A program made the position numbers and the translations under genes. Below, piece after piece: positions 4,318 through 19,530 of a stretch of DNA of 25,594 nt (position 1 is the first letter of the stretch; every line of letters starts with the position of its first letter). The notes beneath the pieces were generated by a model. The model saw nothing but the letters and a program-made list of their open reading frames with translations, was not told the DNA's origin and searched no databases. This DNA comes from a virus. The stretch lies in IMG/VR virus record IMGVR_UViG_3300025093_000108, positions 1 to 25,594 of that record; one strand, written 5' to 3'.

Positions 4318-6038
4318 TAGAGACCCATCTCTGCTTTCATCGCCATGTCCTCTTGAACATCAGCCTCAGCATCAAGCATAGCCTTCTGTGTCTCTGCGCC
4401 TTCGATGACAGCGATGTTATCTCCGTACAGCTCAGGCTCATCCAGTTCATCCGCAAGGATAGCAGCGACACGCTTGCCTGAGATATGAGACCCAACAGAA
4501 GGATCAGCCTTAAGCTGGATCAACTGGGTCAGGGTCTGTACTCGACGGTTGCGTTTCTCGAAGTGAGACGAACCCTCAGGTTGGATCTTACCAGACACAC
4601 CGATGTCGTCCTTGGTGATCGTCGTGTAGATAACTGAACCAACTTCTGCGTCATAGCCTGATACGATCTCTGAACCAGAGAAGTTACGGTAGCCAACCTC
4701 AAGCATAGCTTGGAGGACAGGCTGAAGGAACATAAGCTCAAACTGCAGAGCCTTATGCTGGAAGATACGATTGGCTCCGTTGTCTAGGACACCAACCTCG
4801 AAGGCTGTCTTTTCACCCGGAGTACGTAGGCCCATAGCCATACGAGGTGCACCAGCTAGTTCTTCCATCTTTGTCTCAAGGGTCTGGATCTGGAAGTCTG
4901 CTTGCAGCGCAGTAGCATCAGGACGAAGGTAGCTTACTGCTCCCTCTTCACCTACGTAGATACGCTCACCCGGCTGGTTCTCAAAATCCTCCACGTCCCC
5001 TTGGACAACAACCATGGGCAAAGCGATCTGATCGAAGACATCAGCCTTCAGGTTCTCTAGGTGGTCGATGCGATACTGCATTCCAACCAAGTTATCCAAC
5101 GGACCCATGGCGTACAGGTTATCAGGACGAGTACGCCAGCCTGCATGGAAGATCATGTCAGTGCCCATGTAGCTCGGGCTGTCTTCCATCTTTACGATGT
5201 ACGCCCGATCCACCACAGTGATAACCTTGTTAGTATACAGGGTCTGTGTGCTTTGGTCGTACATGTCTCCGTAGAACGTCAGGAACTCTACAGAGGAACT
5301 AGCGTAGTAGTTCTGGATAGACGTGAAGCCGTCAGCGATATACGCATCAGACTTCTGAATGTCACTGCCTCCACCTACTTCACTTCTGTTGTTGAGCATC
5401 TTGTTCAAGATCACAGCGAAGTCAGGATCAGACTCAGCCATCTTTTGGACTTCACCTAGGCGCTTCAGACTACGGATGATCTTAGGAGTATCCGAGAAGT
5501 GAGCAGCAGTAGGATCGAACGTAATGTCGAAAGGACTGATACGAACAAGACGAGGACCCTTGTAGACCTGAGAGCTGTTGCCGTCTTCTGTCTGGACAAA
5601 CTCGTTGATGTACTCAATGGTGCCGAAGCAGTTACCTGTCAAGATCCAGTCGTCCAAGAGATCCATGGTAGTGGACGTAAAGCCACTTTGGTCCATCTTG
5701 GTCTTCATGAACTCCGTGATAGCCCGAGACTTGTCACGACTTTCTACGGTGTCCCCCTTCCACTTCATCCAGTCAGACGAGGGAAACAAAGCAGAAGTGT
5801 AGTTAGCTTTCAGGTTATCGTAGATCTGCGTCAGCTTAGGTGTAGTGGTAGAGTTAGACCAAGGTAGCTTTTGGTTCTGTGTCGTCAGCGTGTCTGTTGC
5901 ATAGACGTAGTTCCTCAGCTCCTGACACTGGGACATCCATGTCTTGCGGTACTGGTTCCATGTCTGCCAGCTGTTCGCAATAGCCGAAGCCATAGCGTCA
6001 GGGGAGATCAGGTTGTCAAGGTCCAGTGTTCTTTTCAT
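4317..6038 (-). CDS. Portal (head-tail connector) protein
   Basis: A 573-residue protein of typical podovirus portal length. The N-terminal part shows 'WQTWNQYRKTWMSQCQELRNYV' (split for description), then 'LPWSNSTTTPKLTQIYDNLK' and 'ALFPSSDWMKWKG', a signature of podovirus portals. The core includes 'FDITFDPTAAHFSDTP', and the long helical region has 'LRTPGEKTAFEVG' followed by 'NRIFQHKALQFE'. The C-terminus is acidic and helical. Twelve copies would form the ring at one capsid vertex through which DNA passes. The ATG shares a base with the terminase stop, with GGGAG upstream. The order terminase, portal, scaffold, capsid is canonical. Confidence 0.92.
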   Translation of the reverse strand: MKRTLDLDNLISPDAMASAIANSWQTWNQYRKTWMSQCQELRNYVYATDTLTTQNQKLPWSNSTTTPKLTQIYDNLKANYTSALFPSSDWMKWKGDTVESRDKSRAITEFMKTKMDQSGFTSTTMDLLDDWILTGNCFGTIEYINEFVQTEDGNSSQVYKGPRLVRISPFDITFDPTAAHFSDTPKIIRSLKRLGEVQKMAESDPDFAVILNKMLNNRSEVGGGSDIQKSDAYIADGFTSIQNYYASSSVEFLTFYGDMYDQSTQTLYTNKVITVVDRAYIVKMEDSPSYMGTDMIFHAGWRTRPDNLYAMGPLDNLVGMQYRIDHLENLKADVFDQIALPMVVVQGDVEDFENQPGERIYVGEEGAVSYLRPDATALQADFQIQTLETKMEELAGAPRMAMGLRTPGEKTAFEVGVLDNGANRIFQHKALQFELMFLQPVLQAMLEVGYRNFSGSEIVSGYDAEVGSVIYTTITKDDIGVSGKIQPEGSSHFEKRNRRVQTLTQLIQLKADPSVGSHISGKRVAAILADELDEPELYGDNIAVIEGAETQKAMLDAEADVQEDMAMKAEMGL

Positions 6039-7570
6039 TACATTCTCCCACCGAACCTAGAGTTAAACTGAACCACGTTGTCGTTCCTTGCTATCCTGCG
6101 CTCAGGAGGCTTCACGAGATTATCTATCGCTGTAGCCAGAGCGTCTTTAACATCGTCCTGAGGAGGGTTACGTTGAACCAACTCTTCTTCGAGGACCTGT
6201 GTGTTGCCACCTCTGTAGTGGTATACCTGTCTATTATCATACCGAGGGACAAGCACAGCCTCTATTCGTTCTTCCTTAGACCCTTGGTGTCTCGTGGGTC
6301 TGATCTCTTCTACCTTGAGAGCCAGGCCATAAGGAGCGAAGTAGTCTTCCTTTAGGGACCGGACAATAGCACTCTGGGCAGCAGTGACTTCACAACAGAT
6401 CTTCTTGAAGCTCCAGCGGTTGAGCATATCGAGGATCACTTTGAAGTACTCGGACAAGCGGTCTGCTTTGAAGCGCTCGATGTCCAAGACGTACACGTTG
6501 TTCTCAGAGTCCACCCCGGCCACTACGATTGCAGTGTAGTCTGCGGTACGGCGTAGGGAGTAGGCGAAGTCAACAGAGGCAATGATGTTTAGTCGTCTGC
6601 CGTTGTAGAACCAGTGTCCTGCTTCCTGTCTCAGGTGCTTACGTTCGAAGTACTGGAACTTGTCGTAGTCAATCGGACGGTCGTCAGGGCTACTCGGGTC
6701 ATTGTAGTACTGAGCTCGGTACTGCATACGGTCAACGTACTTGGCTCTCTTGCGTGCTAGGATAGCTTGGTCAAACCCAAACCACTTGCCATCCTTGCGT
6801 TGCTGACGAGGCCAGAGGAACTCTCCGGTGCCGTCTCCTGCGTCCTCTACTGAACGCTCCATGATCTCGTAGACAGTCTCTTCCCCACACTTCTCACCGT
6901 ACCTGTCGTAGATGTCCTCACGCATAGTGAGCATGGTGTTGTAGAGATCCTTGGGGTGATACCGAGTTCCTACCACCCACTCTTCTGCGTCTGCTCCCTC
7001 AATGGATGACAGGAGAGAATACTGAGTATCTACCTTGTCTCGTCCCTCTTTCGTGTATGCGTTCTCCTGAACCACTACGTCATCGAGGACAGCAATGTCA
7101 CAGTGCATTCCAGTGATCGAAGTGGTGAGACCAGCGGTAAGGATCGAAGGGTCACGAATGTTCTCCTTGATGCGATCCGGGTGATCTAGTTCGATCTCCG
7201 TGTTAGTCCAGCGAGCACGCTTACCTTCTTCAGGGATAACATGCTCAGGCCAGTACTTCATGAAGACCTTGGACGACAGAATGTTCTTGATAAACCCAAG
7301 CTGCTTCTGTGCCAAGTTAGCAGTAGCCGAGATATACAGGAACCTAAGCGTTGGTTGCTTAGCGAGTCTCCATGCCACTCGGTATGCTATGTACCTAGAC
7401 TTACCGTGGTCCCGTGGAAAGAGGAGAAGCTGATGCGCCTTGCGGTCTTCTCTCTCCCACCACCGGATAACTTCCTTGTGACACGCACCCATACACTCAA
7501 GAGGAGCGACAAGATGGATGAAGAACTCAAGGTCAGCCTCTGCTCTTTCCCTGATTTCTTGTGGTGTCAT
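6038..7570 (-). CDS. Terminase large subunit (packaging ATPase and nuclease)
   Basis: A 510-residue protein when started at the ATG at 7570. A TTG 33 bases upstream would add 11 residues, but the ATG overlaps the upstream stop as ATGA and has TAGGA at a good distance, so I prefer it. The ATPase domain has a Walker A-like 'FPRDHGKS' (residues 51-58), 'YISATANLAQKQL', and Walker B 'IAVLDD' (159-164) followed by 'EEWVVGTRYHPKDLY'. The RNase H-like nuclease domain begins near 'IASVDFAYSLRRTADYTA' and ends with 'DDVKDALATAIDNL', which supply the acidic residues. It cuts and pumps DNA through the portal. The layout resembles the T7 gp19-type terminases. Confidence 0.93.
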   Translation of the reverse strand: MTPQEIRERAEADLEFFIHLVAPLECMGACHKEVIRWWEREDRKAHQLLLFPRDHGKSRYIAYRVAWRLAKQPTLRFLYISATANLAQKQLGFIKNILSSKVFMKYWPEHVIPEEGKRARWTNTEIELDHPDRIKENIRDPSILTAGLTTSITGMHCDIAVLDDVVVQENAYTKEGRDKVDTQYSLLSSIEGADAEEWVVGTRYHPKDLYNTMLTMREDIYDRYGEKCGEETVYEIMERSVEDAGDGTGEFLWPRQQRKDGKWFGFDQAILARKRAKYVDRMQYRAQYYNDPSSPDDRPIDYDKFQYFERKHLRQEAGHWFYNGRRLNIIASVDFAYSLRRTADYTAIVVAGVDSENNVYVLDIERFKADRLSEYFKVILDMLNRWSFKKICCEVTAAQSAIVRSLKEDYFAPYGLALKVEEIRPTRHQGSKEERIEAVLVPRYDNRQVYHYRGGNTQVLEEELVQRNPPQDDVKDALATAIDNLVKPPERRIARNDNVVQFNSRFGGRM

Positions 7571-8109
7571 AGTAGTCCTACGATCAGGATCATTGTCCAC
7601 CAAAGGAACCCAGTGACCAGCTCACCGATAGTGATTGCTTTGGTAGGCGACACTTGGTGTCCTAGCTCATAGCCAGCGACAACCAAGAAAGCAAAAGGCA
7701 CTGCCAATCCCAGCACGAGAGGGGAAGACGCAAGATATGCGCAGGCACCAAGGAAAGGCAGCACCAGCCAGAAGTGACGCCAGAAGAGGGCCACGTAGTC
7801 AGAGGTGAAGCTGATGTACTGGATGGTCTTTACGAACCACTCGGACTGACGTGGGTCCTTGGCGTTAGCTGCGTCATTGCGATGCAGATCAAACCAAAGA
7901 CCCCAGCCCGGAGCACCCCACACAGAGAACCCCAGAGCTACAGCTACACCTAGTTGCCAGCCAAACACCGCTGTGGTAAGACCACCGAGAACCCCAGCTA
8001 CCCAGAAGAGAGCACGACTAGGGAGGTAGTCTGTCAGTGTGCTCATGCCTCCACCACGGATGCGGTTAAAGACAATGAACACAGGTGCTGTGGCCAGCCA
8101 CTCAATCAT
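7567..8109 (-). CDS. Multi-pass membrane protein of unknown function
   Basis: A 180-residue protein with about four hydrophobic segments: near 'ALFWVAGVLGGLTTAVFG', 'LGVAVALGFSVWGAPGWG', a long stretch around 'WLVLPFLGACAYLA' to 'LAVPFAFLVVAGYELG', and 'FLWWTMILIVGLL' at the C-terminus. 'FNRIRGGG' near the N-terminus and 'APGWGLWF' recall a group of phage membrane proteins encoded near terminase genes, known to me only as hypothetical. Both ends overlap neighbours as ATGA. A holin-like role is possible because T7 encodes its holin near the terminase genes, but size and topology are not typical, and no lysin is visible in the window. Confidence 0.65.
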   Translation of the reverse strand: MIEWLATAPVFIVFNRIRGGGMSTLTDYLPSRALFWVAGVLGGLTTAVFGWQLGVAVALGFSVWGAPGWGLWFDLHRNDAANAKDPRQSEWFVKTIQYISFTSDYVALFWRHFWLVLPFLGACAYLASSPLVLGLAVPFAFLVVAGYELGHQVSPTKAITIGELVTGFLWWTMILIVGLL

Positions 8110-13679: not shown

Positions 13680-13756
13680 TACCGATCTGTTCATATTCAA
13701 AGTTCTGCATATGTGAAACAAAAACCCAAGTCCTCCTGCCCTTGCTTTCCTCCTGA

Positions 13757-13772
13757 TGTTTCACGTGAAACA
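13757..13772. promoter_or_regulatory. parS: parS-type centromere site (ParB binding palindrome)
   Basis: The 16-base perfect palindrome TGTTTCACGTGAAACA. It equals the widely conserved bacterial chromosomal parS consensus bound by ParB family CTPases. A lone half-site GTGAAACA lies 52 bases to the left at 13713-13720. No parA or parB gene is visible, so host ParB is the obvious candidate binder. A chance exact match in a window of this size is roughly six in a million with equal base frequencies. Confidence 0.75.
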
Positions 13773-13795
13773 CCTAAGCACCACCTTAGCAATAA

Positions 13796-13844
13796 TAGGT
13801 CAACAATGCTGTCCTAAAATAATACGTAAGCAATGCTGACCTAA
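13796..13844. promoter_or_regulatory. Operator-like repeats before the rightward promoter
   Basis: Two copies of CAATGCTG[T/A]CCTAA at 13804-13817 and 13831-13844 differ at one base and are 27 bases apart. TAGGTCA (13796-13802) and TGACCTA (13837-13843) form an inverted repeat around them. T-runs follow at 13846-13851 and 13856-13861, 33 bases before the promoter. A repressor or activator site is plausible; a terminator is less likely because the loop is long. Confidence 0.45.
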
Positions 13845-13893
13845 GTTTTTTCATCTTTTTTACCCAACCGTACCAAAATCGCCAAAAGTGTTC

Positions 13894-13950: not shown

Positions 13951-14091
13951 ATGAACTACATCGAGTCTTGCTGGATCACTGCATGTCTATTGACACGGGA
14001 TGCCTTCAACGTTAGTCACAAGCGTGTCGGCGGTATTCGCTTCGTTAAACTGGGTCGCATCAACCTGACTCTGTCTGTCTCGCAAGCCTGA
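13951..14091 (+). CDS. Small early protein (46 aa)
   Basis: An open frame of 46 codons, MNYIESCWITACLLTRDAFN then 'VSHKRVGGIRFVKLGRINLT' and SVSQA. GGAG is ten bases before the ATG. It has an N-terminal hydrophobic patch with two cysteines and a basic C-terminal half with beta-strand character. It is the first gene after the rightward promoter, the position of early host-takeover genes in many phages, but I know no function. It is supported by start signal and position only. Confidence 0.5.
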   Translation: MNYIESCWITACLLTRDAFNVSHKRVGGIRFVKLGRINLTLSVSQA

Positions 14092-15361: not shown

Positions 15362-15654
15362 ACAAAGACCGTATCAACCAAGCATTCAATGACGCTATCG
15401 CACAGCGGGGCAAGCGTAAGGGCCTCCTGAAAGCTCAGTGTCCACCCATGGGTACCGACGGGGCCGCTATGTGGCAGGCTCTTATGATGGAAGTGAACCC
15501 CTACAAGGTCGGCTTAGGTCACTTGGTTCTCATGACACAGGAACAGCGTGAATTTTACAATGCGTGCGTGACCTATGCTGAGAACCTACATAGCCTAGTG
15601 AAAGCCGGTATCGATCTGGACCGGGCAAGACTTGAAGCAATGGGAGCATGGTAG
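15358..15654 (+). CDS. Small early hypothetical protein
   Basis: A 98-residue protein starting MNKDRINQAFNDAIAQRGKR. It has a basic N-terminal part and a helical C-terminal part with several leucines ('ENLHSLVKAGIDLDRARLEA'). The start overlaps the previous stop as ATGA. No family is recognised. Its tight coupling to the Cys-cluster protein could mean a joint role. Confidence 0.6.
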   Translation: MNKDRINQAFNDAIAQRGKRKGLLKAQCPPMGTDGAAMWQALMMEVNPYKVGLGHLVLMTQEQREFYNACVTYAENLHSLVKAGIDLDRARLEAMGAW

Positions 15655-16244: not shown

Positions 16245-16400
16245 ATGGCACACAAGAAAACGCCTGTAGCCCCCCTTAAAACGCCGGGAAAGGGCACTCT
16301 AGTCCGTGACCTACACTCCCCGAAGTACCACCAACGCAAAGTGCACAACAAGAAAGTGTACGACAGGAAGAAGCACAAGGAAGAAGAGCATGAAGTATGA
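16245..16400 (+). CDS. Small basic protein (51 aa)
   Basis: A 51-codon frame with MAHKKTPVAPLKTPGKGTLV and 'RDLHSPKYHQRKVHNKKVYD', ending in a Lys/Glu-rich tail. It is strongly basic and probably unstructured alone, so RNA or DNA binding is possible. From memory 'P.pTPGK....RDL.SPKY..R' recurs in small phage proteins. AAAGG precedes the ATG. The end overlaps the next gene by 11 bases. Confidence 0.5.
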   Translation: MAHKKTPVAPLKTPGKGTLVRDLHSPKYHQRKVHNKKVYDRKKHKEEEHEV

Positions 16401-17118
16401 ACTTATCAAGCAGGAAGACACTCACCTCTTTAGGGTCAAGGCACTCAAAGACTTTGGTACCGTGAAAGCAGGAGATTTGGGAGGTTACGTAGAGTCGGAG
16501 AAAAACCTAAGTCAAGACGGCAACGCTTGGGTGTCCGGTAACGCTGAGGTATACGGTGACGCTAGGGTGTGCGATGACGCTAGGGTATCCGGTAACGCTA
16601 GGGTGTGCGATGACGCTAGGGTATCCGGTAACGCTAGGGTGTGCGATGACGCTAGGGTATGTGGTAACGCTAGGGTATCCGGCAACGCTTGGGTATCCGA
16701 TAACGCTAGGGTATACGGTGACGCTAGGGTGTGCGATGACGCTAGGGTATACGGTGACGCTAGGGTGTGCGATGACGCTTTGGTATTCGGCAACGCTAGG
16801 GTATCCGATAACGCTTGGGTATCCGGTAACGCTTTGGTATTCGGCAACGCTAGGGTATACGGTGACGCTTTGGTGTTCGGCAACGCTAGGGTATCCGATA
16901 ACGCTTGGGTATTCGGCAACGCTAGGGTATCCGATAACGCTTGGGTATCCGGTAACGCTTTGGTATTCGGCAACGCTAGGGTATACGGTGACGCTTTGGT
17001 ATTCGGCAACGCTAGGGTATCCGATAACGCTTGGGTATCCGGTAACGCTTTGGTATTCGGCAACGCTTGGGTATACGGTGACGCTTGGATACCTAAAGGA
17101 GACATAAATGAAGTATGA
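16390..17118 (+). CDS. Hexapeptide-repeat (left-handed beta-helix-like) protein
   Basis: A 242-residue protein starting MKYELIKQEDTHLFRVKALK. Residues 1-44 form a cap ending in 'AGDLGGYVESEKNLSQDG'. Residues 45-236 are 32 hexapeptides of the form [N/D]A[R/W/L]V-x-[G/D], for example NARVYG, DARVCD, NAWVSG. This matches left-handed beta-helix hexapeptide proteins. Similar phage and prophage proteins with a 'KAGDLGGW.ESE.NLS..G' cap are familiar to me and have no known function. The last residues are PKGDINEV. The ATG at 16390 follows GGAAGAAGAGC. The gene sits in the early arm, so a structural virion role is less likely. Confidence 0.75.
   Translation: MKYELIKQEDTHLFRVKALKDFGTVKAGDLGGYVESEKNLSQDGNAWVSGNAEVYGDARVCDDARVSGNARVCDDARVSGNARVCDDARVCGNARVSGNAWVSDNARVYGDARVCDDARVYGDARVCDDALVFGNARVSDNAWVSGNALVFGNARVYGDALVFGNARVSDNAWVFGNARVSDNAWVSGNALVFGNARVYGDALVFGNARVSDNAWVSGNALVFGNAWVYGDAWIPKGDINEV
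16522..17097 (+). repeat. 18-bp tandem repeat array (32 units) inside the hexapeptide gene
   Basis: Each 18-base unit encodes one hexapeptide, based on AACGCTAGGGTATCCGGT-like words. A higher-order repeat of seven units (126 bp) is visible: 16810-16935 and 16936-17061 are nearly the same for their first 100 bases. Because the unit length is divisible by three and lacks stop codons in other phases, long false frames appear on both strands. Units change number easily by slippage or recombination. Confidence 0.85.
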
Positions 17119-19296: not shown

Positions 19297-19530
19297 ATGA
19301 AGAACATTTACCTGATTACACGAGATGATCTTTCAAACTCCTTTGATGAGGCTATCGGGTTTGTTGTTATCGCAGGTAACGAGCAAGATGCCCGAGACAT
19401 CTGCACTATCGAGACCAAAATCGGTGGATATAAGTGGTGGTTGAATACTGAAACATCGACCTTGACAACCGTAGGGTACACAGGTGAGCAGCCTGACCAA
19501 GTAGTCTTAGGGGAGTACGACTGGGTATGA
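19297..19530 (+). CDS. Small hypothetical protein between helicase and polymerase genes
   Basis: A 77-residue acidic protein, MKNIYLITRDDLSNSFDEAI then 'FVVIAGNEQDARDIC'. The start at 19297 has AAAGGA six bases upstream; a GTG 15 bases earlier is less favourable. The pattern strand, 'A.se.eAr.i', Trp-rich strands and a final 'YDWV' is shared by many small phage and bacterial proteins, without function known to me. The stop overlaps the polymerase ATG as ATGA, so expression is coupled to replication genes. Confidence 0.6.
   Translation: MKNIYLITRDDLSNSFDEAIGFVVIAGNEQDARDICTIETKIGGYKWWLNTETSTLTTVGYTGEQPDQVVLGEYDWV

Follow-up and report, generated by a model that had tools for sequence, protein, structure and literature searches.

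ParB is a CTP-driven DNA clamp that has been studied almost solely on chromosomes and plasmids. In phage-plasmids, parB lies beside parS in a ParABS partition cassette. Host-type parS sites are also present in the Bacillus phages phi29 and B103 (Salasmaviridae, Picovirinae). Phage phi29 (L487) has four TGTTTCACGTGGAACA sites, at 10445, 15903, 17243 and 18760, and no ParB_N domain; in B103 (L488), an exact parS at 15611 is accompanied by a variant at 10120, and the sites in the gp10/gp11 and gp15 regions appear common to both phages. Meijer et al. 2005 (EMBO J) reportedly found that Spo0J, the ParB of the host, contributes to the trapping of phi29 DNA in spores. An earlier note on the DNA studied here, made from its letters alone, knew of no described short-tailed phage of such kind, a statement that does not survive the four near-consensus sites of phi29 and the parS of B103; a host parS on a short-tailed phage is therefore not new in kind.

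The window, i.e. the whole stretch of DNA that was analyzed, is a complete IMG/VR record of 25.6 kb and represents part of a phage genome, those of its relatives measuring 39–45 kb. A megablast search with the window returned no match to known phages, and Rfam and tRNA searches gave no matches. Its DNA polymerase A (19527..21437, plus strand), which was used to place the phage, is 48% identical to that of Roseobacter phage CRP-5, followed by those of Lentibacter phage ICBM2 and CRP-4. Judged by the sequences of its DNA polymerase A, terminase, portal and primase-helicase, the phage belongs among Cobavirinae-like podoviruses. The cobaviruses that have been cultivated are strictly lytic and infect Rhodobacteraceae, and their genomes carry direct terminal repeats where the two gene modules join (PMC6775973). 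Bacterial genomes searched with the DNA polymerase of the window contained no relative and hence gave no direct tie to a host, which from phage kinship only is likely a member of the Rhodobacteraceae.

The 16-bp palindrome TGTTTCACGTGAAACA at 13757..13772 matches the consensus of chromosomal-type parS exactly, in agreement with the earlier note. Further copies, for which a search had been proposed, are absent from the window when up to 3 mismatches are allowed; the number of exact copies expected is 5e-6 from base composition and 9e-6 from a dinucleotide model. The site occupies non-coding DNA between the leftward late module, whose first gene (12465..13034, minus strand; phrog_8035) is conserved in Cobavirinae, and the first rightward (early) ORF of 46 aa (13951..14091, plus strand), which begins 178 b after parS, so that its description as part of a phage control region proved apt. 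The half-site GTGAAACA that had been reported at 13713..13720 (plus strand) is indeed present, but the window contains seven half-parS heptamers, two of them within the palindrome, which is about the chance number, and we therefore gave this half-site no weight.

The window encodes no ParB_N domain (PF02195), as had been claimed of a ParB gene, although a parB beyond these 25.6 kb of an incomplete genome is conceivable; the complete relatives CRP-4, CRP-5, ICBM2 and the oyster-derived PQ867845 likewise lack ParB_N. With no ParB_N in the window or in the complete relatives, the locus does not have the layout of a partition cassette. It corresponds to the phi29 type, a phage without ParB that bears a host-type parS, as far as this can be judged from a partial genome and a host deduced from kinship. 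Phages phi29 and B103 resemble the window phage in being short-tailed and in combining a host-type parS with a ParB-bearing host, whereas they differ in having several sites (in phi29, three out of four are intragenic), as well as in their sporulating Gram-positive host, unrelated phage family and protein-primed genome.

To compare the site with chromosomal parS, ParB loci were taken from alphaproteobacterial genomes, and 29 of them were examined as Rhodobacteraceae. Nearly all of these 29 loci contain the exact 16-mer at least twice, with two fixed positions on the same side of parB in most of them; the exceptions are L404, which has only single-base variants, and the short contigs L409 and L414, which have none. 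Among whole Rhodobacteraceae genomes, 9/10 carry the exact 16-mer, eight in exactly two copies and one in four, the latter as two pairs on two contigs, and in these 9/10 genomes the 16-mer is found only as such pairs. The chromosomal parS beside parAB is identical to the window site over all 16 bp, and the earlier identification as a canonical chromosomal parS thus holds for the likely host family in particular; the chromosomal sites are usually paired beside parAB, whereas the phage has a single site without parAB. Therefore, if the host belongs to the Rhodobacteraceae, the phage bears its host's own centromere sequence. Because ParB recognizes the parS 16-mer itself, a perfect parS should load ParB in a Rhodobacteraceae cell, and binding of host ParB at the window site is very likely, given the host assigned by kinship.

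Alignment to relatives places the site in a structured junction. A TGTAC followed by a C-rich block at 13480..13521 (plus strand) is the predicted left (5') end of a direct terminal repeat and aligns to CRP-5 39220–39260 and to the start of the ICBM2 repeat; positions 13483–13521 align to the terminal-repeat start of CRP-5, which itself resembles the annotated one of ICBM2. By homology to relatives, the terminal repeat of the window phage would extend from ~13479 to ~13771, which would put parS at its right boundary and possibly at both virion ends. The motif GGGGAAAT, which marks the terminal-repeat end in relatives, is absent from the window. Directly after parS follows a small inverted repeat, CTAAG-N6-CTTAG (13774..13789), and relatives have AGGTAA-N7-TTACCT at the matching place. 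Next, downstream of the predicted repeat end, comes a clade element in two 27-bp copies, AATAATAGGTCAACAATGCTGTCCTAA and AATAATACGTAAGCAATGCTGACCTAA (13791..13844, plus strand), the second of which (13815–13843) matches CRP-4 40413–40441 at 25/29 positions, just past the CRP-4 terminal-repeat end.

On the other side of parS, at 13550..13656 (plus strand), a 24-bp iteron-like repeat, TTCATACATTCGAATATTCATAAG, centered on TTCGAA, recurs 4.5 times; no equivalent was found in relatives, and these copies may form an origin of replication or a regulator array. Two 70-bp repeats (13120..13256, minus strand) lie upstream of the leftward gene, whose annotated start is probably too early, and relatives often have 49–50 bp repeats at about the same place. 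In many Cobavirinae-like junctions (the window, L335, L350, L358, L360 and L373), repeats of 49–70 bp precede the phrog_8035 gene by ~100–300 b and are possible terminase or regulator sites. A rightward promoter had been suggested about 120 bases after the parS site; the sole candidate of a sigma-70 scan is leftward (13041–13013), and the scan identified no promoter adjoining parS. Outside the junction, a 36-bp-period DNA array at 16306–17118 encodes a protein of YdcK-type beta-solenoid repeats (PF18836, E 1e-42) and leaves several frames open. On the minus strand at 8868–11348, six tandem paralogous-looking genes of ~125 aa adjoin the tail-fibre gene and have a common AAAWANxNGTG-like start.

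The same junction was then compared across the clade, using 80 loci gathered by an alignment query for homologues of the adjacent gene 12465–13034. None of the 80 contains parS with up to two mismatches (0/80; at least 300 b of upstream junction in 73, at least 900 b in 55), nor do the isolates CRP-4, CRP-5 and ICBM2. The complete relatives, including PQ867845, have related genes and the same kind of early/late module junction, and the terminal repeat, dyad and downstream element of the window recur among them; at the place where the window phage has parS, they have a 15-bp dyad, TGTTAYANTRTAACA, or none. This dyad is found in CRP-4 and several environmental relatives. In CRP-4, L334, L349, L350 and L360, it stands just before the terminal-repeat end ...GGGGAAAT, ~22 nt before AGGTMAAC..., and in L321, L355 and L356 it stands ~14 nt before AGGTCAATAATGCT; the window parS stands ~24 nt before AGGTCAACAATGCTG. 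Across the 80 junctions, 17 dyads are listed after removal of duplicates, compared with 2 in a reversed-sequence control. The window palindrome occupies the position of the clade dyad, near the terminal-repeat end, and has its outer bases TGTT...AACA, but falls outside the clade consensus because it measures 16 bp, has T as its fifth base and is centered on CACGTG. The earlier note had held that relatives keeping the region without the palindrome would refute its reading, which applies in part: parS is indeed absent from a region whose architecture is kept, yet a different palindrome takes the same place. In PQ867845 (L475), TGTTGCACGTGAAACA at 16872–16887, one base off parS, lies inside a gene near the ORF 3' end.

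Beyond the Cobavirinae, exact parS was found in at least 120 viral contigs, whereas complete scans with control palindromes of the same composition found 5 contigs (TTGTTCACGTGAACAA) and 9 contigs (GTTTTCACGTGAAAAC); the enrichment of parS is therefore at least 13-fold. Long genes are avoided by the viral parS sites: although predicted genes of 150 aa or more make up 71% of the DNA, 101/146 of the sites listed fall elsewhere (p ~1e-23). ParB_N was absent from 26/28 parS-bearing viral records searched, many of which exceed 40 kb. Two parS-bearing contigs, L052 and L031, have no near match among known phages. A literature search, with most subscription papers outside its reach, found no description of parS in lytic phages. 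Some contigs depart from a single site: L017, L044, L053 and L063 have arrays of 3–5 exact parS within ~1 kb, and L087 combines eleven TGTTTCACGTGGAACA with a single exact parS within 5 kb (8906–13878) and may represent host DNA or an element that bears ParB.

The clearest case is that of HTVC027P-like marine phages, whose TerL is 64% identical to that of pelagiphage HTVC027P. In 68/78 usable contigs, parS occurs within 230 b upstream of terL, 55 times exactly and 13 times with one or two changes; these contigs (L120, L236–L314) were collected by similarity to a single parS-bearing contig and are therefore not independent. The variants include TGTTCCACGTGGAACA and TGTTTCACGTGGAACA, forms inside the known degeneracy of parS, and single-base variants of such kind also lie beside parAB in L404. 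In the interval from a conserved A+T-rich promoter-like block to the start of terL there are one or two sites, and many contigs have two sites ~24 bp apart, in either order. Mean conservation of the palindrome block is 0.83, compared with 0.74 and 0.68 in its immediate flanks, although the palindrome does not rank first among the blocks of the region. Like the window phage, the HTVC027P-like phages have a control-region parS and no ParB_N in the records tested; unlike it, they form an unrelated group in which one or two widely conserved sites, often paired, adjoin the packaging gene, ~50 b upstream of terL. An equivalent position in the window was considered and rejected, as its terL (6038–7603) is far from parS. 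The isolate HTVC027P itself carries CGTTTCACGTGAAACA in a different intergenic region, at 16412.

Among the possible uses of the window parS, recruitment of host ParB has the best support. Within a Rhodobacteraceae cell, the ParB of the host would recognize the site and load there as CTP-dependent clamps, which would slide over the genome-end junction and the early and late promoter regions. ParB, and through it also ParA and SMC, would then be brought to phage DNA that is entering the cell or has become concatemeric, and would locally affect its positioning and/or transcription. Whether the palindrome is such a host-type centromere site, acting in cis on a lytic Cobavirinae-like phage without ParB, seems to us evenly balanced, and there is about an even chance that the site was selected for ParB binding. 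Against this explanation stand the single copy, the 0/80 count among related loci, the different dyad of several relatives and a host deduced from kinship only. Positioning, transcription control and titration are all candidate benefits for the phage.

Since a different dyad stands at the junction in several relatives, a palindrome is to be expected there on grounds that may be independent of ParB. The window palindrome could be one member of that dyad family, acting as the operator of a regulator encoded by phage or host or marking where the terminal repeat is cut, with a center that happens to read as parS. The likeness in position near the terminal-repeat end and the common outer bases argue for this; moreover, given an even-length TGTT...AACA dyad, an exact parS would arise in ~1 in 256 cases, a chance too large to neglect when 80 relatives are compared. 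Nearly all dyads found in the relatives are 15 bp long, their fifth base being A and their center A+T-rich, unlike the 16-bp CACGTG-centered palindrome of the window, and no protein is known for the dyad, so that we consider this origin possible but lean against it. Two histories of the site are thus opposed: acquisition of, or selection for, a host ParB site in this lineage, and drift of a clade dyad with another function to an exact parS. Pure coincidence in neutral DNA, for which the lack of conservation among distant relatives could be adduced, is very improbable, considering that ~1e-5 copies are expected, that the site stands where relatives have a dyad and that viral contigs are enriched in parS.

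The remaining explanations differ in what host ParB would do. As a special case of ParB recruitment, the site could time transcription, with ParB covering the control region and repressing at few phage copies, and its titration at rising copy number switching genes on. ParB-bound sites parS3 and parS4 of P. aeruginosa repress adjacent promoters (PMC7022226), the HTVC027P-like sites lie between the promoter-like block and terL, and the window parS lies between divergent early and late modules; as the sigma-70 scan found no promoter next to the latter, we regard a timer as unlikely here. Alternatively, replicating phage genomes could outnumber the chromosomal parS, strip ParB from the chromosome and block segregation and division. 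With about two exact sites per Rhodobacteraceae chromosome and many genome copies of a lytic phage, such a decoy is conceivable, but one site per genome is little where arrays would be expected, and the junction position would be needless, making it improbable. Plasmid-like maintenance through host ParB, which the earlier note had also suggested, or the lifestyle of a phage-plasmid, draws on the iteron-like repeats 100 b from parS; it was rejected as the main reading and is extremely improbable, because cultivated cobaviruses are strictly lytic (PMC6775973) and the window genes examined include none seen to act in partition or replication initiation.

The window phage adds one more case to a known, little-noticed kind and belongs to a much wider pattern. 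A broader proposal, which we find rather unlikely, is that lytic phages have widely adopted capture of the host parS as a strategy: numerous phages that lack ParB, unrelated to one another and often marine, would retain one or two host-type sites in control regions of packaging or late genes, ParB loaded at parS would, by titration at rising copy number, time the switch to late genes and packaging, and the cobavirus would have converted its terminal-repeat dyad to this use. The sites upstream of terL in the HTVC027P-like clade make the idea directly testable, with those of phi29 and B103 as a laboratory model. If lytic phages regularly bear parS without ParB, then ParB, ParA or SMC would be phage host factors, and the placement of parS would be a readable sign of how a phage handles the DNA organization of its host.
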